From Microcella alkalica (GTDB taxonomy: Bacteria > Actinomycetota > Actinomycetes > Actinomycetales > Microbacteriaceae), in the NCBI RefSeq assembly GCF_014595885.1, contig NZ_JABUKC010000001.1:682001-746000 (forward strand): a DNA stretch of 64,000 bases. Direction: 5' to 3'. The notes below the pieces were generated by a model that had not been told where the DNA came from, did not search any database, and worked only from the letters and a program-made list of their open reading frames with translations. The position numbers and the translations under genes were made by a program. Position 1 is the first letter of the stretch, and the number at the start of each line of letters is the position of its first letter. Shown in pieces: positions 9,784 through 37,156 of the stretch.

Positions 9784-10416
9784 GTGATCGCGGCGGCGGC
9801 GTCGGGGGCGGATGCCCCTGACGCCGCCGCCCCCGTCGGTCTCGTCGTCCCCGTGCGGGGCGGCGTTCGCGGCAAGAGCAGGCTGGCGCTCGAGCCGCAC
9901 CGCCGCGCCGCGCTCGCGGCGGCCTTCGCGCTCGACACGGTGGCGGCGGCGCGGGCGGCGGCGCTCGTCGGCGACGTTGTCGTGGTGGGCGCCCTGCCGG
10001 AGCCGGTCGCGGGGGTGCGCGTGCTGGCTGACCCCGGCGAGGGGCTGCTCGCCGCGATCGCGGTGGGGCTCGCGGCGTTGCCGTCGGGCGGCGCGTCGGC
10101 GGTGCTGCTCGGCGATCTGCCCGCGCTGCGGCCGGAGGAGCTCGACGACGCCCTCGCCGCGGCCGGGCGTCACGAGCGCGCGTTCGTGCCCGACGCCGAG
10201 GGCTCGGGCACGGCGCTCATCGTTGCCCGGGCCGGGGCGCCGCACGTTCCAGCGTTCGGTGAGGGCAGCGCCGAGCGGCACCGCGCGGCGGGGTACGTCG
10301 AGCTCGTGCTGCCGGCCGGGTCGGGTCTGCGGCGCGACGTGGACACGCTCGAGCAGCTGCGAGCCGCGGCATCCCTCGCCCTGGGCCCGCGCACGCGCGC
10401 GCTGCTCGAGGCCTGA
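9784..10416 (+). CDS. cofC: Phospho(enol)pyruvate/2-phospho-L-lactate guanylyltransferase (F420 biosynthesis)
   Basis: CofC/FbiD activates 2-phospholactate or, in actinobacteria, phosphoenolpyruvate with GTP to make the guanylated precursor used by CofD/FbiA. The 210-residue protein has a nucleotidyltransferase (Rossmann-like) fold: VGLVVPVRGGVRGKSRL at the start is the family GTP-binding signature, followed by LLGDLPALRPEEL with the metal-binding Asp, and GTALIVA. GTG at 9784 is the best start; it is 8 bp after the glgP stop, so it may be read through from glgP. It converges with fbiC (16 bp between ends). The F420 genes fbiC and cofD lie just downstream on the other strand. Confidence 0.9.
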   Translation: MIAAAASGADAPDAAAPVGLVVPVRGGVRGKSRLALEPHRRAALAAAFALDTVAAARAAALVGDVVVVGALPEPVAGVRVLADPGEGLLAAIAVGLAALPSGGASAVLLGDLPALRPEELDDALAAAGRHERAFVPDAEGSGTALIVARAGAPHVPAFGEGSAERHRAAGYVELVLPAGSGLRRDVDTLEQLRAAASLALGPRTRALLEA

Positions 10417-10432
10417 CGCGGCTCGGCGGCGC

Positions 10433-13054
10433 CTACGCGCCGGCGCGCACCTCGGTGATCGTGAGCGAGAGGCGTCGCCCGGTGGCGGCGTAGCCCTGCT
10501 CGCGGTGCGCCTGGGCTGCGGCGCGGCGCTCCTCGCTCGGCTCGCCGTACGTCGTCGTGCGCTGCCACGCCTCGCGTCCGATGCCGGCGGCGAGCGCCTC
10601 GAGCTCGGCGACGGTCTTCTCCGAGCCGTGGTCGGCGCCGGCCATGCGGCTGATGGTCTCCTCCATGAGGGTGCCGCCGACGTCGTCGGCCCCGCCCTGC
10701 AGCATGAGCTGCGTGCCGGTGGTGCCGAGCTTGACCCACGAGGTCTGGATGTGGTCGATGCGCCCGTGCAGCATGAGGCGCGCGACGGCGTGCACGGCGC
10801 GGTTCTCCTGCGCGGTCGGGCCGGGGCGTGCGACACCGGCGAGGTAGACGGGCGAGTTGGCGTGCACGAACGGCAGCAGCACGAACTCGGTGAAGCCGCC
10901 CGTGGTGTCCTGGATGCCGGCGAGGGTGCGCAGGTGGCCGACCCAGTGCGTCGGGTTGTCGACGTGCCCGTACATCATGGTGCTCGACGAGAGGATGCCG
11001 AGGCGGTGCGCGGTGGAGACGATGTCGATCCAGGTCGACGCGGGCAGCTTGCCCTTGGTGAGCACCCAGCGCACCTCGTCGTCGAGGATCTCGGCTGCCG
11101 TGCCGGGGATCGTGTCGAGCCCGGCCTCCTGCAGCGACCGCAGGAACTCCTCGTACGACAGCCCGGTGCGGCTGGCGCCGTTGACGATCTCCATGGGGCT
11201 GAAGGCGTGCAGGTGGATGCCCGGCCGACGCCGCTTGACCTCGCGCGCGAGGTCGGCGTAAGCGGTGCCCGGCAGGTCGGGGTGGATGCCGCCCTGCATG
11301 CAGATCTCGGTCGCCCCCAGCTGCCACGCCTCGTCGACGCGGTCGCCGACCTGCTGCATCGACAGCGTGTACGCGTCGGCGTCGGTGCGCCGCTGGGCGA
11401 AGGCGCAGAACCGGCAGCCGGTGTAGCAGACGTTGGTGAAGTTGATGTTGCGATTGACGACGTAGCCGATGCGGTCGCCGACCGTGTCGCGGCGCACGTC
11501 GTCGGCGAGCGACGCGAGCGCGTCGAGGTCGGCGCCGTCGGCGTCGAGCAGGGTGAGGTAGTCGGCGTCGCTGAGCCCGGCGGGAGCATCCGCCGCCCTC
11601 ATGAGCGCCGCGCGCACGCCTGTCGAGATCGCGAGGGATGCCCGGTGCGGCCTCGTCGTGTCGCCGACGGCTTCGCGCAGCGCCTGCCAGTCGCCGTACA
11701 CGTCGTCGATGTCGCTGCGGGTCTCGGTGCGCCGGCCCTCGGTGTCGATCGCGGTGTGCAGGTCGACGCGTCCGGAGCCGGCCCAGTCGGGGTCGGGCTC
11801 CTGCCACGGCAGGCCGACGGGCAGCGCCGACTCGTCGGCGAGGCCGTCGGGGGCGGCGAGGGCGCGCACGTGGGGGAGGACGCGCGGGTCGAGCCAGGGC
11901 TCCTCGGCGCGCACGTAGTGGGGGTGCGCGGTGAGGCGCTCGCGCAGGGTGAAGCCCGAGAGCGCGGTGAGGCGCGCGAGCTCGTCGATCTGCGGCCAGG
12001 GCCGCTCGGGGTTGACGTGGTCGGGGGTGAGCGGGCTCACGCCGCCCCAGTCGTCGATGCCGGCGCGGATCAGCAGGCCGAGCTCCTCGGCGTCGGTGAG
12101 GTTCGGCGGTGCCTGCAGGCGCGCGCCCGGGCCGAGCACGAGGCGGGCGACGGCGACGGCGGCGATGTACTCCTGCAGGTCGAGGTCGTCGGCGGCGCGC
12201 ATGGCCGTGCGGGGCTTGGCGCGGAAGTTCTGGATGATGACCTCCTGGATCGCCCCGAAGCGCCGCGAGGTGGCGCGCAGGGCGAAGAGGCCGTCGACGC
12301 GCTCGGCGTAGGTCTCGCCGATGCCGAGCAGCAGGCCGGAGGTGAACGGCACGGAGGAGCGGCCCGCGTCTTCGAGCACGCGCAGCCGAACATCCGGGTC
12401 CTTATCGGGGCTGCCGAAGTGGGCGAGGCCGCGCGTCTCGAACAGGCGCCGCGAGGTCGTCTCGAGCATCATGCCCATGCTCGGCGCGACGGGCTTGAGG
12501 CGCTGGATCTCCTCCCACGTCATGACGCCCGGGTTGAGGTGCGGCAGCAGCCCCGTCTCTTCGAGCACTCGGATCGCGACGGCGCGCAGGTAGTCGATGG
12601 TCGAGTCGTAGCCGTGCGCGTCGAGCCACTCGCGCGCGGCGGGCCAGCGATCCTCGGGCCGGTCGCCGAGGGTGAAGAGCGCCTCCTTGCAGCCGAGCGC
12701 CGCGCCCTGGCGCGCGATGTCGAGCACCTCGTCGGGGCTCAGGAAGGGCGCCTTGCCCTGCGCGGCGAGCTGGTTCGGGGTCTGCACGAAGACGCAGTAG
12801 TGGCAGCGGTCGCGGCACAGGTGCGTGAGCGGGATGAACACCTTCCGCGAGTACGTGATGACGTCCGGGCGGCCGGCGCGCTCGAGACCGGCGTCGCGCA
12901 CCCGTCCGGCGACCGCGAGCAGGCGGTCGAGGTCGTCGTGCCGGCAGTGCAGCAGGGTCTCGGCCTCGGTCGCGTCGAGCGTCACCCCCGATTCGGCGCG
13001 CTTGAGCGCGCGCGAGAGGGCGGATGCGGTGGGCACGAACGCTGCGTCGGTCAC
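10433..13054 (-). CDS. fbiC: FO synthase (bifunctional CofG/CofH)
   Basis: Makes FO, the deazaflavin chromophore of F420, from tyrosine and a ribityl-pyrimidine using two radical-SAM domains. The protein has 873 residues. The N-terminal CofG-like half carries CRDRCHYC (CxxxCxxC) near residue 80, and the C-terminal CofH-like half carries CYTGCRFC after NRNINFTNV. Such a fused CofG-CofH is typical of actinobacteria, while archaea have separate proteins. The GTG start at 13054 is supported by GGAG five bases upstream; the frame stays open further upstream but that part is low complexity. It is an isolated transcription unit facing cofC. Confidence 0.96.
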
Positions 13055-13735
13055 GAGGTCTCCGTGGTCGGCTGCGGCCCGCGGCGCGCGTGCGGCGCCG
13101 TGGCGAGCGGAGGGGCGCGGGCACGCCGACCCGCGGAGGGTGCGGCGGGCGAGTGCCGCCGCGGTGAGCACTCCCAAGTCGGGCGCGCTGCGTGAGTGCG
13201 GCCAGCCTAGTGCGCGGGTCTGCTCGCTCGCCGGTCCGCGCGCCGCGCGTGCGAGCATCGAGCCGCTGGATCCCGTTCCGGCCGCCCGTGTCGCCCTGGT
13301 ACAGCATCCGCCTGACACGCCCCGCCCCGCCCCGCCCCGACCTTCCCGCTCATCCCAGCCACCTCTCCTGCCCTCCGCTCCCCTTCGGTGGGCCGGCGTG
13401 GTGACTCTGCGAATTGCGGAAGATCGCGAGCCGGCTTCGCGAACTTCCGCCGTTCGCAGAGTGCCGTGGTGGCACCCAGGTGCCGCCCGCCGCCCGCCGC
13501 CCGTGCGCGAGGGCCAGCGGGCTGGACCGGCGACCTGGCGAGCCCCGCACAGGCCGCGTGGCGCCTGCGTCGCACGACCAGCACGCCGATACCGCCCCAG
13601 CGCGAGAGGCGAGGGACCGCCCGACGACGCTCCTCCCCAGCTCGACTCGCGCGTGCGTCGACCACGGGTCGGCCGGCATGAGCCCGTGCGCACGGTCTCG
13701 TGCATGAGCATCCGAGGGTGGCAGTGGGATGGAAC
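13055..13735. repeat. Gene-free region with a long inverted repeat (13404-13462)
   Basis: About 680 bp between the divergent fbiC and the AbiEi-like remnant. I see no convincing gene; open frames on both strands are GC-driven. An imperfect inverted repeat spans 13404-13462: outer arms ACTCTGCGAA and TTCGCAGAGT are perfectly complementary, and the inner part (GCGGAAG / CTTCCGC) also pairs. C-rich and CCGCC-rich low-complexity stretches surround it. The region looks like decayed or intergenic-repeat DNA. Confidence 0.5.
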
Positions 13736-14269
13736 ATGGAGCCGGTGATCCGACGGTACGGCGGCATCGCGTCGCGGGCTGAGCTGCTCGCCGCGGGGTG
13801 GACGCCCACCGACCTGTGGCTCGCCGACAAGTACGGCGACCTCGACCGCATCCGTCGCGGCTGGTACGCCTCGAGCGACCTCCCCGACGATGCTCGAGCG
13901 GCCTGGGCGGCCGGCGGGCCGCTCGCCTGCGTGAGTGCGCTCCTGCACCACGGCATGCTCCCGCCCGACGACGACGACGCCGCCCTCGGCCTGCACATCG
14001 CGATCGCCGCCGATGCGCACCGAATCCGACGAGGCCCCGACGAGGCGCGTGCCGCCACCCTGGTCGTTCCGCACTGGAGCACCGCCGACCGGTGCTCCGG
14101 CTCGCGCCTGGCCGTGTCGCCCTCCGTCGCCCTGCGTCAGGCGCGCGGCTGCACGAGAGCCGTCAGAGCGCGCGTGCGCTCACTGCCGAGGGCTGCGCAG
14201 CCTGTCGTTCACCACGAGCCGCGGATGCGCGGGCTCTCCTCGTGCAGCGTCACCGTCGCGCGGCGGTAG
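13736..14269 (+). pseudogene. Remnant of an AbiEi-type antitoxin-domain protein
   Basis: The first roughly 110 residues (start ATG 13736, [18 protein letters not shown]) look like the N-terminal winged-helix domain found in AbiEi-family antitoxins and in the DUF559-type proteins common in Microbacteriaceae: a helix-turn-helix, RIRRGWYA, then [14 protein letters not shown]. After [13 protein letters not shown] the resemblance ends and the frame runs into low-complexity sequence that overlaps, antisense, the 3' end of the HAD phosphatase gene. The C-terminal domain is missing and no partner toxin gene is present. I read this as a truncated, probably non-functional gene. An intact short regulator cannot be excluded. 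Confidence 0.5.
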
Positions 14270-14892
14270 TCGGCGAGCCGGTGCAGGCCCGCCGTCTCGG
14301 GGCCGACCGCATCACCGCGCACGACGACCCGGGCGCCCGCCGCGAGGCCCGCGCGCACCCCCGCCGCGGTGTCCTCGACGACGACGCAGCGGGCCGGGTC
14401 GACGTTCAGCTGCGCGGCGGCGAGCAGGTAGCACGCGGGGTCGGGCTTGCCCGCGGGCACGTCGTCGGCCGTCACGAGCACGGGCGGCGTCGGCAGCCCC
14501 GCCGCCTCCAGCCGCGCGCCCACGAGCAGGGCGTTCGCCGAGGTCACGATCGCCCAGGGCGCGCCGAGCTCGGTCAGCCGGGTCAGCAGCTCACGCGCCC
14601 CCGGCAGCGCCACGGTCTCGTGCACGAGCTCCAGCTCGCGCGCGTCGAGCCAGGCGGCCGCCTCGGCGGGGTCGCCGTCGGGCAGAAAGCGCCGGATCGT
14701 CTCCTCCGCCCGCACGCCGTGCGCGACGGAGAGCACCTCCTCCGGGTCGACGCCGAAGCGCGCCGCGAAGTCGCGCCATGCCTGGTCGACGGCGCTGGTG
14801 GTGTCGACGAGGGTGCCGTCGTTGTCGAAGAGCAGGGCATCCGCGTCGATCGCCGCCGTCGGCGCGGGCGAGGGGGAGGCCGCGGTGCTCAC
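14209..14892 (-). CDS. HAD-superfamily phosphatase
   Basis: A 227-residue HAD hydrolase of the beta-phosphoglucomutase/phosphoglycolate-phosphatase type. Motif I is FDNDGTLVD (nucleophile Asp), motif II VTSAN, motif III includes GKPDP, and motif IV is VVEDTAAGV. A helical cap lies between motifs I and II. The GTG start at 14892 overlaps the cofD stop by four bases (GTGA), so it is coupled to cofD. A role connected with F420 is suggested only by this position; the substrate is unknown and sugar phosphates are usual for the family. Confidence 0.85.
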   Translation of the reverse strand: MSTAASPSPAPTAAIDADALLFDNDGTLVDTTSAVDQAWRDFAARFGVDPEEVLSVAHGVRAEETIRRFLPDGDPAEAAAWLDARELELVHETVALPGARELLTRLTELGAPWAIVTSANALLVGARLEAAGLPTPPVLVTADDVPAGKPDPACYLLAAAQLNVDPARCVVVEDTAAGVRAGLAAGARVVVRGDAVGPETAGLHRLADYRRATVTLHEESPRIRGSW

Positions 14893-15926
14893 GGGCGTCT
14901 CCGCAGCTCGAGCGCGAAGTCGAGCGCGTCGCGAGCGAGGTCGGCGGCCGTGTCGAGGTCGCGCATCAACAGCGGCACCGCGCGCGCCTCGATGCCCGCA
15001 TCCTCCACGTCGGCGAGCGCCGCGGCGTCCTCCTCGGCGAGCAGCCAGCCGTCGAGCAGGCCGCGGGCGCCCGACTCGGCGTGCACGACTCGCGACCGAG
15101 CGCCGTAGTGCCGAGCGACCGCCGCGGCATCCGTCGCCACGCCGATCGCCTGCAGGCAGGCGTCGGCCATGCCGCGCACCGCCGCGCCGGCGATGATCGG
15201 CGACACGCCCACGACGGTGCCGGGGGAGGCCGTGACCGCCTGCGCCATGCCGGGGATCGACAGGATCGTGCCGATCGACACGACGGGGTTCGAGGGCGCC
15301 ACGAGCACGACGTCGGCGCCGAGCAGGGCGTCGAGCGCGCCGACCGACGGGATCGCCCGGTGCAGGCCGTGCTGGTGGAACCGCAGGGCGGGGATGCTCG
15401 CCCGATGCCGCGTCCACCACTCCTGGAAGTGCAGCTCGCGCTCGCCCGACGCGAGCTCGTCGTCGCCGGCTGCCTCCGGGTCGGCGATGACCACGTGCGT
15501 GTCGACCTCGTCGTCGGTCGCGGGGTGCAGGGTGACGCCGAGCTCCCAGCGCTGCTGCAGTCGGCGCACGACCTCCGAGGGCGTCAGGCCGTCGCGCAGC
15601 CACGCCGAGCGGGCGATGTGCGTGCCGAGGTCGAGGTCGCCGAGCGTGAACCACGGCGGCGTGACCCCGTACGCCTGCAGCTCGCCCGAGACGCGCTCGC
15701 TCTCGCCGACGCGGCCCCAGCCGCGCTGCTCGTCGTTCTGCCCGCTCAGCGTGTACAGCATCGAGTCGAGGTCGGGGGTGATGCGCAAGCCCGCGAGCCA
15801 CCAGTCGTCGCCCGTGTTGACGATGACGTCGACGGATGCTCCCGGCCGGTGGCGGCGCACCTCCTCCCGTACGCCGCGCACGAAGCGCGCACCTCCGACG
15901 CCGCCCGCGAGCACAGTGATCCGCAC
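14889..15926 (-). CDS. cofD: 2-phospho-L-lactate transferase (F420 biosynthesis; CofD/FbiA)
   Basis: Joins the guanylated phospholactate or phosphoenolpyruvate product to FO, giving F420-0 or dehydro-F420-0. The protein has 345 residues. The N-terminus RITVLAGGVGGARFVRG is the family signature, followed by VNTGDDWWLAGLRITPDLD and, later, APSNPVVSIGTIL. The start chosen is GTG 15926 because TACCGT at 15938-15933 sits 6 nt upstream, implying a leaderless mRNA; an upstream extension has no domain character. Together with cofC and fbiC it supplies most of the F420 pathway. The gamma-glutamyl ligase (cofE/fbiB) is not in the window. Confidence 0.93.
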   Translation of the reverse strand: MRITVLAGGVGGARFVRGVREEVRRHRPGASVDVIVNTGDDWWLAGLRITPDLDSMLYTLSGQNDEQRGWGRVGESERVSGELQAYGVTPPWFTLGDLDLGTHIARSAWLRDGLTPSEVVRRLQQRWELGVTLHPATDDEVDTHVVIADPEAAGDDELASGERELHFQEWWTRHRASIPALRFHQHGLHRAIPSVGALDALLGADVVLVAPSNPVVSIGTILSIPGMAQAVTASPGTVVGVSPIIAGAAVRGMADACLQAIGVATDAAAVARHYGARSRVVHAESGARGLLDGWLLAEEDAAALADVEDAGIEARAVPLLMRDLDTAADLARDALDFALELRRRP

Positions 15927-15932
15927 GGCTCT

Positions 15933-15938
15933 ACGGTA
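15933..15938 (-). promoter_or_regulatory. -10 element of a leaderless cofD promoter
   Basis: TACCGT on the minus strand, 6 nt before the GTG start. It has TANNNT form, and no Shine-Dalgarno sequence lies between it and the start. Confidence 0.5.
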
Positions 15939-16122
15939 TCCGCGCCCCGCTGGGGGGTCGGCGCTCGCCGCGGCTCGTAGCGGCGGTGCTCGTTCGTGCG
16001 CGTCTCTGGCCCGGCGCGCATCCGCGGGCCTAGGTTTTACGCACGCGTCATTGAGCGAAACGAGCCGGTAATGCTCGCCCCGCACACTGACCCCAGTTCA
16101 ACGATGAGAAGGGGTTTCATCA

Positions 16123-16971
16123 ATGTCAGTCATCCGCGCTGCGATCACTCAGACCACCTGGACGGGTGACAAGGAGTCGATGATCGCCAAGCACGAGCAG
16201 CTCGCGCGCGACGCCGCCGCCGACGGAGCGCAGATCATCTGCTTCCAGGAGCTCTTCTACGGCCCCTACTTCGGCATCATCGAGGACGCCAAGTACTACG
16301 ACTACGCCGAGCCCGCCGACGGGCCCACCGTGCAGCGCTTCGCGGCGCTCGCCAAGGAGCTCGGCATCGTGATGGTCCTCCCGATCTACGAGGAGGACAT
16401 GCCGGGGGTGTACTACAACACCGCCGTCGTGGTCGACGCCGACGGCACCATCCTCGGTAAGTACCGCAAGCACCACATCCCGAACCTCGACCGCTTCTGG
16501 GAGAAGTTCTACTTCCGCCCCGGCAACCTCGGCTACCCCGTCTTCGACACCGCCGTCGGCAAGGTCGGCGTCTACATCTGCTACGACCGGCACTTCCCCG
16601 AGGGGTGGCGCGAGCTGGGCCTGGGCGGCGCCGAGCTCGTGTTCAACCCGAGCGCGACGAAGCCCGGCCTGTCGAACCGCCTGTGGGAGCTCGAGCAGCC
16701 CGCCGCGGCCGCCGCGAACCAGTACTTCATCGGCGCCAACAACCGCATCGGCACCGAGAGCGACGAGTTCGGCGACCTCGCCGTGACGTTCTACGGCAGC
16801 TCGTACTTCGTCGACCCGCGCGGCAACTACGTCGGCGACGTCGCGAGCCAGGACCAGACCGAGATCGTCATCCGCGACCTCGACCTCGGGCTCATCCGCG
16901 AGGTGCGCAACAGCTGGCAGTTCTACCGAGACCGCCGGCCCGACTCGTACACCGCGACGGTGAAGCCGTAG
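16123..16971 (+). CDS. Carbon-nitrogen hydrolase, probable beta-ureidopropionase/N-carbamoyl hydrolase
   Basis: Nitrilase-superfamily enzyme of 282 residues. The catalytic triad is visible: Glu in CFQELFYGPYF, Lys in GKYRKHHIP and Cys in VYICYDRHFPE. The sequence is close in style to beta-ureidopropionases and N-carbamoylputrescine amidases. Dihydropyrimidinase lies 11 bp downstream, so N-carbamoyl-beta-alanine (giving beta-alanine, CO2 and ammonia) is the most likely substrate. The start ATG follows GAAGGGG. It is the first gene of a probable operon running to 23263. N-carbamoyl-D-amino acids from hydantoins are the main alternative. Confidence 0.88.
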   Translation: MSVIRAAITQTTWTGDKESMIAKHEQLARDAAADGAQIICFQELFYGPYFGIIEDAKYYDYAEPADGPTVQRFAALAKELGIVMVLPIYEEDMPGVYYNTAVVVDADGTILGKYRKHHIPNLDRFWEKFYFRPGNLGYPVFDTAVGKVGVYICYDRHFPEGWRELGLGGAELVFNPSATKPGLSNRLWELEQPAAAAANQYFIGANNRIGTESDEFGDLAVTFYGSSYFVDPRGNYVGDVASQDQTEIVIRDLDLGLIREVRNSWQFYRDRRPDSYTATVKP

Positions 16972-16982
16972 GGGGCGCCGAG

Positions 16983-18446
16983 ATGTCGACCCTGCTCATC
17001 CGCGGCGGCACCGTCGTCTCCGCCACCGGCCGCGGCGCGGCCGACGTGCTCGTCGACGGCGAGACCATCGTCGCCGTGCTCGCCCCCGGCTCGACCCTGC
17101 TCGGGCACGACCTGGCCGCATCCGTCGACACGGTCGTCGACGCGACGGGCAAGTACGTGATCCCCGGCGGCATCGACGCGCACACCCACATGGAGCTGCC
17201 CTTCGGCGGCACCGCCGCGATCGACACCTTCGAGACCGGCACGATCGCCGCAGCCTGGGGCGGCACCACGAGCATCATCGACTTCGCCGTGCAGACCGCC
17301 GGCCAAAAGGTCTTCGACGGGCTCGCCGCCTGGCACGAGAAAGCGGCCGGCAACTGCGCGATCGACTACGGGTTCCACCAGATCGTCGGCGGCGTCGACG
17401 CCGATTCGCTGGATGCCCTGCCCAAGCTCGTCGACGAAGGCATCACGAGCTACAAGATGTTCATGGCGTACCCCGGCGTGTTCTACGCCGACGATGCGCA
17501 GATCCTCCGCGCCATGCAGGTCGCCGCCGAGCACGGGCTCATGACGATGATGCACGCCGAGAACGGCCCCGCCATCGACGTGCTCGTGGCGCAGCTGCTC
17601 GAGCAGGGCAAGACCGACCCGTACTACCACGGGGTCGCCCGTGCCTGGCAGATGGAGGAGGAGGCCACGCACCGAGCGATCATGCTCGCGCACCTCACCG
17701 GCGCCCCGCTCTACGTCGTGCACGTGAGCGCCAAGCAGGCCGTCGAGCAGCTCGCCGCCGCGCGCGACCGCGGCCAGAACGTGTTCGGCGAGACGTGCCC
17801 GCAGTACCTCTACCTGTCGCTGGAGGAGCAGCTCGGCGCGGTCAGCGAGCAGTACGGCGCCTTCGAGGGCGCGAAGTGGGTCTGCTCGACGCCGCTGCGC
17901 TCGCGCGCCGAGGGCCACCAGGACCACATGTGGCAGAGCCTGCGCACGAACGACCTGCAGATGGTCTCGACCGACCACTGCCCGTTCTGCATGAAGGGGC
18001 AGAAGGAGCTCGGCCTCGGCGACTTCTCGAAGATCCCGAATGGCATCGGCTCGGTCGAGCACCGGATGGACCTCATGTACCAGGGCGTCGTCACGGGCGA
18101 GATCACGCTCGAGCGCTGGGTCGAGATCACGAGCACCACCCCGGCGCGCATGTTCGGCCTCTACGGCAGGAAGGGCGTCATCGCGCCCGGGGCCGACGCC
18201 GACATCGTCGTCTACGACCCGAACGGCCACACCTCGATCGGCATGCCCGTCGACGCGGCCGGCAACCCCACCGGCAGGAAGCACCACATGAACATGGACC
18301 ACGCCGCGTGGGAGGGCTTCGAGATCGACGGGAAGGTCGACACGGTGATCTCGCGCGGCTCGGTCGTCATCCAGAACGACGCCTTCCACGGGCGGGCCGG
18401 GCACGGTCAGTACCTGCGCCGCGGCCTGAGCCAGTACCTGGTCTGA
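16983..18446 (+). CDS. hydA: Dihydropyrimidinase / D-hydantoinase
   Basis: Zinc amidohydrolase that opens dihydrouracil or dihydrothymine (or 5-substituted hydantoins). It has 487 residues, usual for the family. Metal ligands are visible: HTH in GGIDAHTHMELPFGG, the carboxylated Lys in GITSYKMFMAYPGV, His in MMHAENG and YVVHVSA, and Asp in STDHCPFC. The ATG at 16983 follows the upstream hydrolase by 11 bp. Known pathways put this enzyme before beta-ureidopropionase, consistent with the neighbour. The family has both pyrimidine and hydantoin members; the importer and aminotransferase nearby favour pyrimidines. Confidence 0.94.
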   Translation: MSTLLIRGGTVVSATGRGAADVLVDGETIVAVLAPGSTLLGHDLAASVDTVVDATGKYVIPGGIDAHTHMELPFGGTAAIDTFETGTIAAAWGGTTSIIDFAVQTAGQKVFDGLAAWHEKAAGNCAIDYGFHQIVGGVDADSLDALPKLVDEGITSYKMFMAYPGVFYADDAQILRAMQVAAEHGLMTMMHAENGPAIDVLVAQLLEQGKTDPYYHGVARAWQMEEEATHRAIMLAHLTGAPLYVVHVSAKQAVEQLAAARDRGQNVFGETCPQYLYLSLEEQLGAVSEQYGAFEGAKWVCSTPLRSRAEGHQDHMWQSLRTNDLQMVSTDHCPFCMKGQKELGLGDFSKIPNGIGSVEHRMDLMYQGVVTGEITLERWVEITSTTPARMFGLYGRKGVIAPGADADIVVYDPNGHTSIGMPVDAAGNPTGRKHHMNMDHAAWEGFEIDGKVDTVISRGSVVIQNDAFHGRAGHGQYLRRGLSQYLV

Positions 18447-18473
18447 GCGCCGACGAGCACGAGAGGAGCATCC

Positions 18474-19490
18474 ATGGAATTCGGCGCCGTCCTGCAGACC
18501 AACCCGCCCGCCAGCCGCACCGTCCACCTCGCCAAGCTCGCCGAGCAGTACGGCTTCAGCCACGTGTGGACCTTCGACAGCCACATCCTGTGGCAGGAGC
18601 CGTACGTCATCTACTCGGCGATCCTCGCGCAGACGCACCGGGTGAAGGTCGGGCCCTTCGTCACGAACCCGGCCACGCGCGACTGGACGGTCACCGCGAG
18701 CGTCTTCGCGACCCTCAACGAGATGTACGGCAACCGCACGATCGTCGGCATCGGCCGCGGCGACTCGGCGGTGCGCGTGACCAACGGCAAGCCGACGACG
18801 CTCGCCGAGCTGCGCGAGTCGATCCACGTGATCCGCGAGCTCGGCAACTCGCGGGCCGTCGAGTACCACGGCGCGACGCTGCAGCTGCCGTGGAGCCACG
18901 GCAGCGAGCTGGAGGTGTGGGTCGCCGCGTACGGACCCCTGGCGCTCAAGCTCACCGGGGAGGTGGGCGACGGCTTCATCCTGCAGCTGGCCGACCTCGA
19001 CATCGCGAAGTGGATGATCGAGACCGTGCGCACCGCGGCCGATAATGCCGGGCGCGACCCGATGAGCGTGAAGTTCTGCGTCGCGGCGCCCATGTACATC
19101 GGCAGCGACTGGGATCACATGCGCAACCAGACGCGCTGGTTCGGCGGCATGGTCGGCAACCACGTCGCCGACATCGTCGCCAAGCACGGCGCGAACTCCG
19201 ACGTGCCGCGCGCGCTGACCGACTACATCGCCGGGCGCGAGGGCTACGACTACAACACGCACGGCAAGGCCGGCAACGACCACGTCGACTTCGTGCCCGA
19301 CGAGATCGTCGACCGGTTCTGCGTGCTCGGCACCGCGAAGGATCACCTCGAGAAGCTCGAGGCCCTGCGCGAGCTCGGCGTCGACCAGTTCGCCGGCTAC
19401 CTCCAGCACGACAACAAGGAGGAGACCCTGCGGGTGTACGGGGAGACGATCATCCCCGCGATGCGCGACGCGAAGCGGGCCAAGGCGTGA
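18474..19490 (+). CDS. LLM-class F420/FMN-dependent oxidoreductase (TIGR03842-like)
   Basis: A 338-residue luciferase-like (TIM-barrel) oxidoreductase. The N-terminus MEFGAVLQTNPPASRTVHLA and VGPFVTNPATRDWTV resemble the family I know as TIGR03842 (F420-dependent oxidoreductase, CPS_4043 type), whose genes tend to sit beside dihydropyrimidinase genes. It lies between dihydropyrimidinase and the importer, and its stop overlaps the next start by four bases. No classical dihydropyrimidine dehydrogenase gene is nearby, so this protein is a candidate for the pyrimidine redox step. That function is inference. Reaction direction and cofactor (F420 or FMN) cannot be settled from sequence. Confidence 0.88.
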   Translation: MEFGAVLQTNPPASRTVHLAKLAEQYGFSHVWTFDSHILWQEPYVIYSAILAQTHRVKVGPFVTNPATRDWTVTASVFATLNEMYGNRTIVGIGRGDSAVRVTNGKPTTLAELRESIHVIRELGNSRAVEYHGATLQLPWSHGSELEVWVAAYGPLALKLTGEVGDGFILQLADLDIAKWMIETVRTAADNAGRDPMSVKFCVAAPMYIGSDWDHMRNQTRWFGGMVGNHVADIVAKHGANSDVPRALTDYIAGREGYDYNTHGKAGNDHVDFVPDEIVDRFCVLGTAKDHLEKLEALRELGVDQFAGYLQHDNKEETLRVYGETIIPAMRDAKRAKA

Positions 19491-20406
19491 CCGACGCCGC
19501 GATCGCCCTCACGCCGCCGCGACGGCGCGCGCGCGATCGCGGTGCGCGCCTGCGACTGTGGGGGTACGGCCTGCTCGGCATCGTCGTGCTCGGGCTGGTC
19601 TGGGAGCTCTACAAGGCCCTCGGGCCGGAGGACGGCGTCGTCGTCGGCGGGGCGCGCGTGCTGCCGCGCACGACCGACCTCGCCATGCCGCACCTGTGGG
19701 AGATGGCGTCGCGGCTCGCCGAGCCCGTGACACGGGCCGACGGGGCTCGGCCGCTGTGGCTCGAGATCGTGCTCGCCGCCGCCCTCACGCTCGGCATCGC
19801 TGCGGCCGGGTGGGTCGTCGGCGTCGTCATCGGCATCGCGCTCGCGCTCGTCATGCAGCGCTGGCGCCTGGCCGAGTCGGCGATGCTGCCGTGGATCGTG
19901 CTGAGCCAGACGGTGCCGCTCATCGCCTTCGCGCCGCTCGTGCGCAGCTGGGGCGCGCGCATCGAGATCGGCGCCTTCGAGTGGCAGGACTGGATGAGCG
20001 TCGCCGTCATCGCGAGCTACCTGGCGTTCTTCCCCGTCGCGGTCGGCGCCCTGCGTGGGCTGCAGGCGCCCGACGCGATCCACCTCGAGCTGCTGCGCAC
20101 CTACTCGGTGGGCTGGTGGGCGACGCTGCGCAGTGTGCGGCTGCCCGCCGCGGTGCCGTACCTGCTGCCCGCGCTGCGCCTCGCCGCGGCCAACGCCGTG
20201 GTCGGCGCGATCGTCGCCGAGGTCTCGACGGGCCTGCAGGGCGGGCTGGGGCGCCTCATCATCCAGTACGCCGGCCAGGCCAGCGGCGACCCGGCGAAGG
20301 CGTGGGCGCCCATCGGCGGCGCGATCGTGCTCGGGCTCGTCGCAGCGGGCTCCGTGGCGATCCTCGGCCTCATCTTCCGGAACTACCGACGCGCGGAGGC
20401 GACCGC

Positions 20407-20410
<4 letters not shown>
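19487..20410 (+). CDS. ABC transporter permease 1 (NitT/TauT-like, pyrimidine-type importer)
   Basis: A 307-residue inner-membrane protein with about six hydrophobic segments and a cytoplasmic coupling region around LELLRTYSVGWWATLRSVRLPAAVPYLLPALR, the EAA-type loop of the NitT/TauT/thiamine-precursor permeases. The start is GTG 19487, overlapping the upstream stop (GTGA). The N-terminus is basic, then membrane-spanning (LWGYGLLGIVVLGLVWELY). It pairs with the second permease at 21237-22013 and the ATPase between them. The substrate is inferred as a pyrimidine or its derivative from the operon. Confidence 0.9.
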
Positions 20411-21236
<826 letters not shown>

Positions 21237-21240
<4 letters not shown>

Positions 21241-22013
21241 GCTCCGCGGCGATCGGGCGCGAGGCGAGCACCGCCGAGCGCGTCGGCGCGCCGATCGTGC
21301 TCGGCGTCGTCGTCGTCGCGCTCTGGCAGCTGCTCGCCGGCAGCGGGCTCATCGAGGCCTACCTGCTGCCGAGCCCGCTCGCGATCGGGCAGGAGATCGC
21401 CGAGTTCCTGCCCTCGATGCTGAGCGCCGCGGGGCTCACGGGGCTCAATGCGCTCGTCGGCCTGCTCGTCGGCACACTGCTCGGCATCGTCGGGGCGCTC
21501 CTGGCCTCCGCCACGCGCCTCGTCGACGGGATGCTCGCCCCCGTCGTCGCGGCGCTCTCGGTCGTGCCCATCGTGGCCCTCGCCCCCGTGCTCAACTCGG
21601 CATTCGGCGCCGACGCGCAGACCGGGCGGCAGCTCATCGCCGCGCTCGCCGCCTTCGTGCCCGTCTTCATCAACACCGCGCGCGGGCTGCGGCAGACCCG
21701 GCCCGTGCACCGCGACCTCATGCGCGTCTACGCCGCGTCGCCGTGGCAGACGATGCGCACCATCACGCTGCGCACGGCCGCGCCGTTCACGTTCACGGGC
21801 ATCCGCCTCGCCTCCTCGCTCGCCGTCATCTCGGCGCTCGTCGCCGAGTACTTCGGCGGCCCGCGCGGGGGCCTGGGCGGCCTCATTTCGACCTCGGCCG
21901 CCTCGAGCGCCTACGCCCGCGCATGGGCCTACGTCGTCGCGGCGATCGTGCTCGGGCTCGTGTTCTACCTCGTCGCGCTCGCCATCGAGCGCCTCGTCTC
22001 CCGTCGCCGTTGA
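21237..22013 (+). CDS. ABC transporter permease 2
   Basis: A 258-residue membrane protein of the same permease family as the upstream one. It has about six hydrophobic segments and the coupling loop HRDLMRVYAASPWQTMRTI. A heterodimeric permease pair is the arrangement of several hydroxymethylpyrimidine/pyrimidine-type importers. The ATG overlaps the ATPase stop by four bases. A 101-bp C-rich leader separates it from the binding-protein gene, which has its own strong ribosome-binding site. Confidence 0.9.
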
Positions 22014-22114
22014 CGCCGAGACGCCCCCGGCACCTCTCCGCACCACCCGCTCCATTCGTCCCACCCGCGTCACCACCGCACCACCACCCCCGGGAACCAC
22101 CGAAAGGACAGCAC

Positions 22115-23263
22115 ATGACCCACAGCACCCGTCGCCTCGCGACGATCGGCGCGATCGGCCTGACCGCCGCGCTCGCCCTCTCCGCCTGCGCCGCCGACTC
22201 CGGCGGCACCGACGGCGGAGGAGGCTCCGACGAGCTCACGCAGGTGAAGCTCCAGCTCCAGTGGCTGCCGCAGGGCCAGTTCGCCGGCTACTTCGCCGCG
22301 CAGGATCAGGGCTACTTCGAGGAGGCGGGGCTGGAGGTCGAGATCATCCCCTCCGGCGGCGACATCGTGCCGCAGGACGCCCTCGCCAACGGCGACGTCG
22401 ACTACGCCATCGCCTGGGTGCCGAAGGTGCTCGGCTCGATCGAGGCGGGCGCGAACGTCACGAACATCGCGCAGATCTTCCAGCGCTCCGGCACCCTGCA
22501 GGTCGCGTGGGCCGACAGCGGCATCGAGTCGGTCGCCGACTTCGAGGGCAAGAAGATCGGCTCGTGGGGCTTCGGCAACGAATGGGAGATCTTCGCCGCG
22601 ATGGCCGAGGAGGGCCTGGACTCGACGACTGTCGAGATCATCACGCAGGACTTCAACATGAACGCCTTCCTCGCCGGCGACATCGACGCGGCGCAGGCCA
22701 TGACCTACAACGAGTATGCGCAGGTGCTCGAGACGGTGAATCCCGAGACGGGTGAGCTGTACACGCCCGACGACCTCAACGTCATCAGCTACGAGGACAC
22801 GGTCGGCGCGATGCTGCAGGACGCCATCTGGGCCGACACCGAGCGCCTCGAGAGCGACGAGGAGTACCAGGAGACGACCGTCGCCTTCCTCAAGGCCGTC
22901 ATCAAGGGCTGGGTCTACGCCGCCGAGAACCCGCAGGAGGCCGCCGACATTGTGGGCGCCGCCGGCTCCGGCTGGGGCCCGAGCCACGAGCTCTGGATGG
23001 TCAACGAGACGAACAAGCTCATCTGGCCCGCGCCGAACGGCATCGGCTACATCGACGAGGCCGCCTTCGACGCCACGGTCGAGGCCGCGCTCATCGCCGT
23101 CAACGAGACCGGCGCGCGCCTCATCACCGAGGAGCCCGGCGACGGGGTGTGGACCAACGAGTACATCGAGCGAGCGCTCGCCGAGCTCGAGGAGGAGGGC
23201 GTCGACGTGCGCGGCGAATCCTTCGAGCCGATCGAGGTCGAGCTCAGGGAGGGCGGCAACTAG
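22115..23263 (+). CDS. Substrate-binding lipoprotein of the ABC importer (NMT1/THI5-like)
   Basis: A 382-residue lipoprotein. The signal peptide ends in a lipobox LSAC (Cys at about residue 24), followed by a Gly/Ser/Asp linker. The mature part begins VKLQLQWLPQGQFAGYF, the NMT1/THI5-like signature found in binding proteins for thiamine pyrimidine and related compounds; GDIVPQDALANGDVDYAI is a further family block. The ATG is preceded by GAAAGGA with 6-nt spacing. Position after pyrimidine-catabolic genes suggests it binds pyrimidines or their breakdown products. A strong hairpin terminator follows. Confidence 0.92.
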   Translation: MTHSTRRLATIGAIGLTAALALSACAADSGGTDGGGGSDELTQVKLQLQWLPQGQFAGYFAAQDQGYFEEAGLEVEIIPSGGDIVPQDALANGDVDYAIAWVPKVLGSIEAGANVTNIAQIFQRSGTLQVAWADSGIESVADFEGKKIGSWGFGNEWEIFAAMAEEGLDSTTVEIITQDFNMNAFLAGDIDAAQAMTYNEYAQVLETVNPETGELYTPDDLNVISYEDTVGAMLQDAIWADTERLESDEEYQETTVAFLKAVIKGWVYAAENPQEAADIVGAAGSGWGPSHELWMVNETNKLIWPAPNGIGYIDEAAFDATVEAALIAVNETGARLITEEPGDGVWTNEYIERALAELEEEGVDVRGESFEPIEVELREGGN

Positions 23264-23284
23264 CCCGGCCTCGCCGACCGATCG

Positions 23285-23317
23285 GGGGCGGGATGCTCGC
23301 GCCGAGCATCCCGCCCC
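23285..23317 (+). terminator. Intrinsic-type terminator after the importer operon
   Basis: Perfect 15-bp stem (GGGGCGGGATGCTCG at 23285-23299, complement at 23303-23317) with a 3-base loop, 21 bp after the binding-protein stop. There is no clear U-tract, as often in high-GC actinobacteria. Both arms contain the hexamer GGATGC/GCATCC. Confidence 0.75.
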
Positions 23318-23360
23318 TCTTCGCCCCTCGCTCTCAGCCGACAGGCCCCACGATGGCGGC

Positions 23361-24590
23361 ATGACGATCGACGCCACGCGCGCCGCGGGCCTCGCACGGC
23401 TCGCCGACTTCGTGCCCCGAGCTGGCCGCGCCTACGCCGCCGAGCGCAACCACGACCGCGGCCCGGGCGACCGCGCGAACGTCTCGACGCTCGCGCCGTG
23501 GGTGCGGCACCGGCTCGTGACCGAGCGAGAGGTCGTCGAGGCGGTGCTCGCGCGGCACTCGCCGCAGGCCGCGGAGAAGTTCGTGCAGGAGGTGCTGTGG
23601 CGCACCTACTGGAAGGGCTGGCTCGAGCTGCGGCCGAGCGTCTGGGGCCGCTACTGGGCGGGCCTCGAGCCCGTGCTCGCGGGCCTCAACGCCGACGCCC
23701 GCTCGCGCTACGACGACGCGATCGCCGGCCGCACCGGCATCGACGGCTTCGACGACTGGGCGCGCGAGCTCGTCGAGACCGGCTACCTGCACAACCACGC
23801 GCGCATGTGGTTCGCGAGCATCTGGCTGTTCACCCTGCGCCTGCCGTGGCAGCTCGGCGCCGACCTCTTTCTGCGCCATCTGCTCGACGGCGACCCGGCC
23901 TCGAACACGCTCAGCTGGCGCTGGGTCGCGGGCCTGCAGACCGCGGGCAAGACCTACCTCGCGACCGCCGACAACATCGCCCGGTACACCGACGGCCGCT
24001 ACCGGCCGCGCGGGCTCGCGACCGAGGCGATCGTGCCCGACGACGACCCGGTGCCGCCCGCGGCGCCCGCGCCGACGCCGACGCCGCTGCCGAGCGGGCG
24101 CGTCGTGCTGCTGCTGCACGAGGACGATCTGCACGCCGAGAGCCTGCTGCCGGCGATCGCCGCCGCGGGCGCCGAGGTCGTCGCGGTCGCGGCGCCGACC
24201 GCGGGGGAGCGGCGCTCACCGGTCGCGGCGACGGCCGAAGGGCCGGCACGGTTCACCGCGCAGGCGCTCGACGACGGCCGCGATCGCGCCGCGCGCGCCC
24301 TCGCAGTGCCGGCGATCGCGCTCGACGGGCTCGAGGCATCCGTCATCGCCGCGGCCGCGCGCGAGCACCGCGCGACCGCTGTCGTCACCCCGTATGCGCC
24401 CGTCGGCCCGACCCGCGACCCGCTCGACCGGGCCAGCGCGGATCTCGCGACCGAGGGCCTGCCGCTCGCGACGGCGCTGCGCGAGTGGGATGCCCTCGCC
24501 TGGCCGCACGCGACGCGCGGGTTCTTCCCCTTCAAGGAGCGCATCCCTGCTCTGCTGCGCACGCAGCGAATCGGCCTCGACCGGGGATAA
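23361..24590 (+). CDS. Photolyase/cryptochrome-like protein with rearranged domain order
   Basis: A 409-residue protein. The N-terminal roughly 220 residues match the helical FAD-binding domain of photolyases and cryptochromes: RNHDRGPGDRANVSTLAPWV, EVLWRTYWKGW, TGYLHNHARMWFASIW and LSWRWVAGLQTAGKTYLATA. After a Pro/Thr-rich linker comes an alpha/beta Rossmann-like domain (GRVVLLLHEDDLHAE, ending in TRGFFPFKERIP). Canonical photolyases have the alpha/beta antenna domain first and the FAD domain second, so the order here is swapped. I recall similar FAD-binding domain-containing proteins in other bacteria. Activity (DNA repair or light sensing) is unknown. It sits between the importer and the aminotransferase, probably by chance. 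Confidence 0.82.
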   Translation: MTIDATRAAGLARLADFVPRAGRAYAAERNHDRGPGDRANVSTLAPWVRHRLVTEREVVEAVLARHSPQAAEKFVQEVLWRTYWKGWLELRPSVWGRYWAGLEPVLAGLNADARSRYDDAIAGRTGIDGFDDWARELVETGYLHNHARMWFASIWLFTLRLPWQLGADLFLRHLLDGDPASNTLSWRWVAGLQTAGKTYLATADNIARYTDGRYRPRGLATEAIVPDDDPVPPAAPAPTPTPLPSGRVVLLLHEDDLHAESLLPAIAAAGAEVVAVAAPTAGERRSPVAATAEGPARFTAQALDDGRDRAARALAVPAIALDGLEASVIAAAAREHRATAVVTPYAPVGPTRDPLDRASADLATEGLPLATALREWDALAWPHATRGFFPFKERIPALLRTQRIGLDRG

Positions 24591-24631
24591 TGAGCGACAT
24601 CCCGTCCCTCCGACACAAGGACCGATAACCG

Positions 24632-25999
24632 ATGACCGACACTCTGCACCGGTCGCCCCTCACCCAGCCCGACCTCGACCCGGCCGACGGCGCCCGGGCC
24701 CTCGAGCTCGATCGCCAGTACGTCTTCCACTCCTGGAGCGCGCAGGCCACCCTCAACCCCTTCGTCATCGCCGGCGCCGCCGGCAGCGAGGTGTGGACGC
24801 ACGACGGCGAGCGCTACCTCGACCTCTCGAGCCAGCTCGTCAACACCAACATCGGCCACTCGCACCCGAAGGTCGTCGAGGCGATCCAGCGCCAGGCCGC
24901 CGAGCTCGCGACCGTCGCGCCCGCGCACGGCAACCTCGCCCGCGGCGAGGCCGCGAAGCGCATCGTCGAGAAGGCCGGCCCCGGCTTCGCGAAGGTCTTC
25001 TTCACCAACGGCGGCGCCGACGCCATCGAGAACGCCATCCGCATGGCGCGCCTCACCACTCGCAAGCACAAGGTCATCTCGACCTACCGCAGCTACCACG
25101 GCAACACGGGCGCCGCGATCGCCGCGACCGGCGACTGGCGCCGCATGCCCAACGAGTACGCGTGGGGCCACCTGCGCGTGTTCGGGCCGTTCCTGTACCG
25201 CAGCGAGTTCCACGCCACGACCGAGGCGGAGGAGTGCGAGCGCGCCCTGCAGCACCTCGAGCGCACCATCCAGGCCGAGGGCGCCGACACGATCGCGGCG
25301 ATCGTGCTCGAGTCGGTGCCGGGCACGGCGGGCATCTTCGCCCCGCCGGCCGGGTACCTCGCTGGCGTGCGCGAACTGTGCGACCGGTACGGCATCGTCT
25401 GGATCGCCGACGAGGTCATGGCGGGCTTCGGCCGCACCGGCGAGTGGTTCGCCTGGCAGGGCGAGTCGGTCAACCCGACCGGCGTCGTGCCCGACCTCAT
25501 CGCCTTCGCCAAGGGCGTCAACTCCGGCTACGTGCCGGTCGGCGGCGTCGTCATCTCGCCGGAGATCGCGGCGGCGTTCGACGAGCGCGTCTTCCCCGGC
25601 GGACTCACCTACTCGGGCCACCCGCTCGCCATGGCGTCGATCGTCGCCTCGATCGACGCGATGACCGACGAGGGCATCGTCGAGAACGCGAAGATGATCG
25701 GCGAGCAGCACCTGGGCCCCGGCCTGCGGGCGCTCGCCGAGAAGCACGAGATCATCGGCGACGTGCGCGGCCTCGGCGTGTTCTGGGCGCTCGACCTCGT
25801 CACCGACCGCGCCACGCGCGAGCCCGTGCCGGCGAGCGTCATCGCGACGCTCAAGGCCGAGCTCATGGCGCGTCGCGTGCTGCCGTTCGCGGCCGACAAC
25901 CGACTGCACGTCGTGCCGCCGTGCATCATCACCCCCGACGAGGTCGCGCGCGGCCTCGCGGCGATCGACGAGGCGCTGTCGGCGGTGGCGGCGGGCTAG
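24632..25999 (+). CDS. Class III aminotransferase, probable beta-alanine transaminase
   Basis: PLP-dependent enzyme of 455 residues. It shows FFTNGGADAIENAIRMAR (PLP phosphate region), VWIADEVMAGFGRTGEW (Asp that contacts the pyridine N), FAKGVNSGYVPVGG (PLP Lys) and TYSGHPLAMA. It resembles omega-amino-acid:pyruvate and taurine:pyruvate aminotransferases. In this context beta-alanine from pyrimidine breakdown is the likely amino donor, giving malonate semialdehyde; that is inference. It is on the same strand as the catabolic operon, 42 bp after the photolyase-like gene, and ends before a hairpin terminator. Confidence 0.88.
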   Translation: MTDTLHRSPLTQPDLDPADGARALELDRQYVFHSWSAQATLNPFVIAGAAGSEVWTHDGERYLDLSSQLVNTNIGHSHPKVVEAIQRQAAELATVAPAHGNLARGEAAKRIVEKAGPGFAKVFFTNGGADAIENAIRMARLTTRKHKVISTYRSYHGNTGAAIAATGDWRRMPNEYAWGHLRVFGPFLYRSEFHATTEAEECERALQHLERTIQAEGADTIAAIVLESVPGTAGIFAPPAGYLAGVRELCDRYGIVWIADEVMAGFGRTGEWFAWQGESVNPTGVVPDLIAFAKGVNSGYVPVGGVVISPEIAAAFDERVFPGGLTYSGHPLAMASIVASIDAMTDEGIVENAKMIGEQHLGPGLRALAEKHEIIGDVRGLGVFWALDLVTDRATREPVPASVIATLKAELMARRVLPFAADNRLHVVPPCIITPDEVARGLAAIDEALSAVAAG

Positions 26000-26014
26000 T
26001 CGCCGCACCCTTGG

Positions 26015-37045: not shown

Positions 37046-37156
37046 GCGTCCTCCTTCGACCGCACCGACCCTAGAGAGGGCGACGGATGCGCGTCGCGAA
37101 GCGTCCCCCGCGCCCGGCGCCGCGGCCGGCGGCGAGACGCGCCCCGCCTCGCGCCC

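Follow-up and report, generated by a model that had tools for sequence, protein, structure and literature searches.

A probable reductive pyrimidine-degradation operon of Microcella alkalica with a proposed F420H2-dependent first step

We analyzed a stretch of 64,000 nucleotides from Microcella alkalica, a member of the Microbacteriaceae (NCBI RefSeq assembly GCF_014595885.1, contig NZ_JABUKC010000001.1, positions 682,001 to 746,000 of the forward strand), here called the window, in which genes for the cofactor F420 adjoin genes for a carbon-nitrogen hydrolase, a dihydropyrimidinase, an oxidoreductase of the luciferase-like monooxygenase (LLM) type, an ATP-binding cassette (ABC) importer, and an aminotransferase (Table 1). 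The plus-strand run from 16123 is tightly packed, with 4-base overlaps in three gene pairs (LLM/permease, permease/ATPase, and ATPase/permease), and the start and stop codons of the window genes were checked. An interpretation made beforehand from the letters of this DNA (the sequence-only reading) had listed most of these genes, and those it listed were all confirmed; it did not mention the photolyase-like gene or note that fbiC and cofD lie on the minus strand. The cofD and fbiC genes and the pyrimidine operon are thus divergent neighbors rather than one operon, and their opposite strands rule out cotranscription. The same gene order was seen again in tens of genomes, so the arrangement is not due to chance. 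Comparison of these sequences gives us good confidence that the pyrimidine genes form an operon for the reductive degradation of pyrimidines, in which the first step would be carried out by an F420H2-dependent LLM enzyme replacing dihydropyrimidine dehydrogenase (PydA/PreTA).

Table 1. Genes and intergenic region at the F420-pyrimidine locus of the window
Feature	Coordinates	Strand	Evidence
cofC, 2-phospho-L-lactate guanylyltransferase	9784-10416	+	TIGR03552, 121 bits (cut-off 105)
fbiC (CofGH), FO synthase	10433-13054	-	PRK09234, 1469 bits (cut-off 1018); GTG start
HAD-family hydrolase, directly downstream of cofD	14209-14892	-	TIGR01509, 70.6 bits (cut-off 29.4); GTG start
cofD, 2-phospho-L-lactate transferase	14889-15926	-	TIGR01819, 298 bits (cut-off 257)
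Divergent intergenic region, 196 bp, between cofD and the carbon-nitrogen hydrolase gene	15927-16122		Gene coordinates
Carbon-nitrogen hydrolase, probable beta-ureidopropionase	16123-16971	+	PF00795, 220 bits
Dihydropyrimidinase	16983-18446	+	TIGR02033, 526 bits (cut-off 393)
LLM oxidoreductase, proposed F420H2-dependent pyrimidine reductase	18474-19490	+	TIGR03842, 580 bits (cut-off 295.45)
ABC importer permease 1	19487-20410	+	PF00528
ABC importer ATPase	20407-21240	+	NCBIfam ABC models, none of the matches listed over its own cut-off
ABC importer permease 2	21237-22013	+	PF00528
NMT1/THI5-type substrate-binding protein	22115-23263	+	PF09084, 134 bits
Photolyase-like flavin adenine dinucleotide (FAD) protein	23361-24590	+	FAD-binding domain in first half
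Class III aminotransferase, proposed beta-alanine transaminase	24632-25999	+	PRK06062, 724 bits (cut-off 472)

Reductive pyrimidine breakdown requires a dehydrogenase, a dihydropyrimidinase, a ureidopropionase, and usually an aminotransferase. The block holds candidate genes for all of these steps except the first, which alone is without a classical gene. The sequence-only reading had remarked on the lack of a dihydropyrimidine dehydrogenase, and a check of the whole genome (2.49 Mb, 99.99% complete) agreed with it: no protein was over the cut-off of the PreA model (best match, 40.8 bits versus 335; this search by model covered PreA and not PreT), and the gene behind that best match encodes PyrD (498.6 bits with the model for quinone-dependent dihydroorotate dehydrogenase). 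Likewise, no protein in the genome was over the cut-off of the RutA model TIGR03612 (best match, 69.3 bits versus 498.3; other uracil routes were not searched), which rules out the RutA route here.

The surroundings of the LLM gene were assessed in neighborhoods of up to 10 kb on each side, scored by tblastn. A total of 142 LLM places were listed, of which 140 were scored (91 in the same family, the window excluded, and 49 in other families of Actinomycetota) and two were read separately. A dihydropyrimidinase gene was found near the LLM gene in all 91 family loci and in 37 of the 49 other-family loci (128/142 overall), a nitrilase- or M20-type hydrolase gene in 87/91 and 45/49, an aminotransferase gene in 80/91 and 33/49, and an NMT1 or NCS1 transporter gene in 71/91 and 36/49, respectively; the complete set was present in 65 family loci and 24 other-family loci. 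The types of hydrolase (nitrilase or M20) and importer (ABC or NCS1) change between lineages, with an NCS1-type nucleobase symporter in 23 of the 49 other-family loci. Many Actinobacteria and some Alphaproteobacteria have gene sets of this kind; in Streptomyces BHT-5-2, the record of which carries no annotation, genes for a dihydropyrimidinase, a carbon-nitrogen hydrolase, and an aminotransferase lie near the LLM gene. An LLM protein 97% identical to that of the window is present in a Microcella metagenome-assembled genome. In one locus (L286, from genome G237), the LLM gene consists of two adjacent pieces in different frames. Many family loci also carry, divergent from the operon, a gene for a MocR-like protein with a GntR and an aminotransferase domain (for example, L187:5621-6988, minus strand), which is a candidate regulator of the operon and which had no match in the window.

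None of the 140 scored loci had preT or preA near the LLM gene (0/91 in the family and 0/49 in other families). In a phylum sample of 246 evenly drawn Actinomycetota genomes, the window genome included, TIGR03842, the family of the LLM protein, was over its cut-off in 53 genomes and PreA in 2, neither of which was LLM positive. In one of these two (G208), preT, preA, an M20 gene, and hydA lie side by side, with no LLM gene in the locus and no TIGR03842 match in the genome; the other (G191) has its preA on a contig of only 3.8 kb that includes an in-frame stop, and it is uninformative on neighbors. From this distribution and the G208 locus, the plain reading is that LLM and PreTA would be alternatives for the same step. 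Scarcely credible, by comparison, is a classical dihydropyrimidine dehydrogenase too divergent to be detected, with the LLM protein as an accessory: although a strongly divergent enzyme can escape a model search, and PreT was sought in the LLM loci rather than genome-wide, PyrD accounts for the best PreA-model match, PreA is found in 2 phylum sample genomes versus 53 for LLM, and preT and preA are missing from every scored LLM locus.

The window LLM protein is a clear member of NCBIfam TIGR03842 (F420_CPS_4043), matching the model from positions 1 to 329 of 329. The family is a "hypothetical equivalog" with a name but no reaction, and the reaction is proposed here. The closest solved sequences were F420-dependent methylene-tetrahydromethanopterin reductases (Mer; 8qpm, E = 8e-35), and the first ten of the 12 solved-sequence matches were named F420 enzymes or Mer. 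When an AlphaFold2 model of the protein (mean predicted local distance difference test score, 84; below 50 at residues 37-41, 96-105, 264-266, and 334-338) was searched with Foldseek, Mer came first and the top 12 rows were all F420 enzymes. Membership in Mer itself was rejected, the protein scoring 139.6 bits versus 348.7 with TIGR03555 and 143.5 bits versus 276 with PRK02271 and missing Glu6. Mer depends on Glu6 for its catalysis, and Asp96 contacts the pyrimidine part of the pterin in a model of the complex (PMC11094777). We aligned 222 LLM family rows (repeated genomes occur among the loci, and 2 of 224 translations, being outside 300 to 380 amino acids, were dropped). The position of Mer Glu6 is occupied by V in 194 rows, the window protein among them, by T in 23, and by C in 4, with a gap in 1, whereas Asp97 (Mer Asp96) is kept in 222/222 rows and Val63 (Mer Val62) in 221/222; Tyr153, Gln171, and His230 are conserved as well. 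With Glu6 replaced and Asp97 and Val63 kept, the LLM family thus retains part of the cofactor site and not the chemistry of Mer. We infer that the pterin-facing site may now hold a free pyrimidine.

The link between LLM and F420 was assessed in two samples. In the phylum sample, in which genomes with CofH over cut-off or CofD at an E value of ≤1e-25 were counted as F420 positive, 51 genomes had both LLM and F420 genes, 2 had LLM alone, 95 had F420 genes alone, and 98 had neither (P = 2.6e-11). In a family sample of 199 Microbacteriaceae genomes (92 LLM positive; the window genome included), with CofD at an E value of ≤1e-25, the corresponding numbers were 72, 20, 17, and 90 (P = 1.6e-19); since the sampled genomes are related, both P values overstate independence. 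LLM and CofD were on one contig in 64 family genomes, within 20 kb of each other in 63 of the 64, and on opposite strands in 63/63. Of interest were the 20 LLM-positive family genomes without CofD. CofE was over cut-off in 20/20 of these (G324, G371, G382, G389, G424, G434, and G439 among them) versus 0/18 controls, drawn from the 90 family genomes with neither LLM nor CofD, and a TIGR03557-family F420 enzyme was over cut-off in 19/20 versus 1/18. The notion of an LLM without F420 is weakened by these numbers. The host itself makes or acquires F420, having fbiC, cofC, and cofD in the window and an F420-dependent glucose 6-phosphate dehydrogenase in the genome. The sequence-only reading had suggested examining whether F420 genes accompany this operon in related genomes and had named its wide occurrence in F420-less genomes as evidence to the contrary; such occurrence was not seen, and the expected company was found in 51/53 LLM-positive phylum genomes and, in the family, as CofD in 72/92 genomes and CofE in the other 20.

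The CofH model was over cut-off in 13/199 family genomes and matched below it in 32. Of these 32 matches, 29 lie in long frames of 779 to 1244 amino acids (for example, in G252, G302, and G384), possibly a divergent type of FbiC. In many FbiC-less genomes, genes for a FecCD/BtuF-type ABC transporter were found beside cofD or cofE and the pyrimidine operon (as in L144, L187, L282, and L277). In the one set of transporter genes scored against NCBIfam models, which was the tblastn reference set, the binding protein (TIGR03868, 443.8 bits versus a cut-off of 392.4) and the permease (TIGR03869, 481.6 versus 437.35) were over the cut-offs of the models for a putative F420-0 ABC transporter, and the ATPase (326.9 versus 372.4) was under that of its own. 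Binding protein and permease were together in LLM loci of 33/54 genomes without CofH and 0/37 with CofH. Among the 92 LLM-positive family genomes, with FbiC sought in whole genomes and the transporter in fetched loci only, by tblastn from one reference set, 38 had an FbiC-like gene, 39 had an F420-0-type transporter, none had both, and 15 had neither. The FbiC-like set takes in CofH-model matches under cut-off (222 to 331 bits versus 374), and among the 39 transporter genomes are 4 loci that have just the binding protein, as well as G441 and G326, added from cofE-side stretches that were taken from 6 CofD-less genomes and from no FbiC-bearing genome. On the LLM gene tree, the swap between FbiC and transporter took 16 parsimony changes, with only 3 independent pairs on well-supported branches. 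As FbiC and the transporter were never found together in these genomes, organisms without deazaflavin synthesis seem to take up F420-0, or else a precursor of it, from outside, and salvage of F420 seems, from these gene distributions, to take over from synthesis where FbiC is missing. NCBI is the source of both the importer family and the role suggested for it; added here is its exclusion with FbiC beside the pyrimidine operon.

Outside Actinomycetota, the evidence came from plasmid records of Pseudomonadota. On a plasmid of Leisingera caerulea, LLM is the last gene of a cofG-cofH-cofD-cofC-cofE-npdG-LLM operon, divergent from genes for transhydrogenase alpha and beta subunits, an aminotransferase, a Zn-dependent hydrolase, HydA, and an NCS1 symporter, so that predicted cofactor synthesis, cofactor reduction, and pathway are in one place. 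The same cof-npdG-LLM operon, again with LLM last, is on a plasmid of Paracoccus alcaliphilus. An LLM of 43 to 46% identity was found in 11 records of the plasmid collection, 10 of them from two Leisingera species, and every one of these also holds cofH, about 3.1 kb away in 10 records and on the far side of the record start in the remaining one. A plasmid of Variovorax sp. PBL-E5, a linuron-soil isolate (L021), carries an LLM protein resembling Mer and TIGR03842 (202.7 bits, under cut-off and uncounted) beside genes for a carbon-nitrogen hydrolase, an amidohydrolase, NpdG, and CofG, CofH, CofD, and CofC, perhaps another F420-dependent pathway for a nitrogen compound.

These results bear on the cofactor, which the sequence-only reading had given as F420 or flavin mononucleotide (FMN). 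The Bac_luciferase fold is common to enzymes of both kinds, RutA, an FMN enzyme of the LLM superfamily, acts on uracil, and 54 of the 92 LLM-positive family genomes had no CofH match at an E value of ≤1e-60, all of which would suit an FMN enzyme whose tie to F420 genes is neighborhood history only. Such an enzyme is nevertheless very improbable, because F420-dependent Mer comes first among the solved relatives, and because TIGR03842 is part of cof operons in Rhodobacterales, the CofD-less LLM genomes have CofE (20/20) and a TIGR03557-family enzyme (19/20), and many FbiC-less loci hold the putative F420-0 transporter. The original proposal that an F420-dependent LLM takes the place of dihydropyrimidine dehydrogenase gains support from the absence of PreA and RutA matches over cut-off, the co-occurrence with F420 genes, and the cof operons.

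In the proposed pathway, the NMT1-type ABC importer would take up uracil or thymine, or a pyrimidine related to these, and the TIGR03842 enzyme would pass a hydride to C6 of the pyrimidine ring, yielding dihydrouracil or dihydrothymine; in Leisingera and Paracoccus, the npdG gene adjoining LLM would serve the electron supply. The dihydropyrimidinase would then open the ring, the carbon-nitrogen hydrolase would remove the carbamoyl group, and the aminotransferase would take the amino group off beta-alanine or beta-aminoisobutyrate. The identity of the dihydropyrimidinase is backed by its model score (526 bits versus 393), and its nearest solved relative is a D-hydantoinase/dihydropyrimidinase. 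We consider it unlikely that the LLM enzyme, F420 dependent and part of the operon, reduces some other unsaturated N-heterocycle that the dihydropyrimidinase opens, such as a modified or thiamine-type pyrimidine or an unsaturated hydantoin. In favor of such a substrate, this type of dihydropyrimidinase doubles as a D-hydantoinase, the solved relatives of the NMT1/THI5-type binding protein include binders of thiamine-type pyrimidines (3ix1, a pyrimidine [FAMP]-binding protein), and N-carbamoylputrescine amidase is slightly ahead of the beta-ureidopropionase group in similarity to the carbon-nitrogen hydrolase. The NCS1-type nucleobase symporter in Leisingera and in 23/49 other-family loci, however, argues for uracil or thymine as the substrate, as does the preT-preA-M20-hydA locus of G208, the M20 and dihydropyrimidinase types of which match those beside LLM in Leisingera.

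Several observations weigh against an F420-dependent route for uracil and thymine. The solved sequence closest to the carbon-nitrogen hydrolase is an N-carbamoylputrescine amidohydrolase, by a small margin (192 bits, versus 186 for CG3027-PA [2vhh] and 173 for beta-ureidopropionases), and that nearest to the aminotransferase is a taurine:2-oxoglutarate aminotransferase (6jix), which leaves room for a somewhat different chain of substrates. In 12 of the 49 other-family LLM loci, some of them short contigs, the fetched stretch showed no dihydropyrimidinase gene; five full 20-kb stretches (from G031, G045, G061, G087, and G109) are without one, and that of G045 held none of the genes sought. The two separately read loci carry a hydrolase and a transporter and no dihydropyrimidinase in the stretch, and P. 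alcaliphilus has no annotated dihydropyrimidinase in the 47-kb stretch read. Two LLM-positive genomes of the phylum sample, G119 and G160, had neither CofH nor CofD (both are fragmented assemblies, 96% and 81% complete). To these are added the 54 family genomes without a CofH match, the 15 of 92 with neither an FbiC-like gene nor a transporter within the fetched loci, the relatedness of the sampled genomes, and the scope of the PreA counts, which is the phylum sample plus the window genome rather than the whole family sample. We put at about even chances the broader proposal that TIGR03842 would be a second, F420H2-using dihydropyrimidine dehydrogenase from a different family and the main reductive route for uracil and thymine in Actinomycetota, its operon keeping the F420 supply through FbiC, CofD, or, where FbiC was lost, an importer of F420-0 or a precursor.

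Two other genes of the window were noted. The product of 23361-24590 has about 200 unassigned residues after its FAD-binding domain and no match to an N-terminal photolyase domain, and is possibly a permuted or truncated photolyase; a similar gene was found in 3 of the 91 other family loci. At approximately 36060-37160 on the minus strand, a second LLM protein is encoded, which matches TIGR03885 ("flavin_revert"; 419.8 bits versus 398.7) and TIGR03557 (249.9 versus 210.4).

The proposed function would assign a reaction to a "hypothetical" LLM family present in 53/246 sampled Actinomycetota genomes, would explain the import of F420 by organisms without its synthesis, and would be one reason why some Rhodobacterales carry F420 genes. 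If the broader proposal is true, pyrimidine breakdown would depend on a cofactor shared between species in the manner of a vitamin. We found no description of F420-dependent reductive pyrimidine catabolism or of this enzyme in the literature searched, although F420 or Pyd papers beyond it may hold a prior mention.

An LLM-superfamily enzyme in pyrimidine use is already familiar in RutA, which opens the ring oxidatively with FMN; the route proposed here has the superfamily in common with the Rut pathway and differs in being reductive. With the Pyd pathway (PydA/PreTA, PydB, PydC, and an aminotransferase) the operon has in common a dihydropyrimidinase, a hydrolase of probable ureidopropionase type, a class III aminotransferase, and an importer, and the proposed order of the chemistry is the same. 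Step one differs: in the Pyd pathway it is performed by PydA, an FMN- and iron-sulfur-containing enzyme of the dihydroorotate dehydrogenase family, whereas here it would fall to a member of the bacterial-luciferase family tied to F420. For uracil reduction, the known electron donors are NADPH, NADH, and ferredoxin, in each case with an enzyme of the PydA/PreTA type (PMC7332683), and F420H2 would be added to these. The uricolytic clusters of Chloroflexota include a putative F420-dependent luciferase-family yanthine reductase, a prediction of that study (PMC12507026). The idea is the same, an F420 enzyme of the luciferase family that takes over from a PydA-like or YgfK enzyme in a pathway reducing an N-heterocycle, but substrate (purine derived) and phylum are different. 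SSGG-03002 (NpsU), also a putative F420/FMN enzyme, was found by genetics and nuclear magnetic resonance to be responsible for C5-C6 reduction of uracil in mureidomycins, although the in vitro assay in that study gave no product (PMC10714638). It resembles the LLM enzyme in the proposed reduction of uracil, but acts on uridyl-peptide antibiotics. Set beside these systems, the operon would be a variant of the known reductive pathway with a new first step, a view well supported by sequence comparison.

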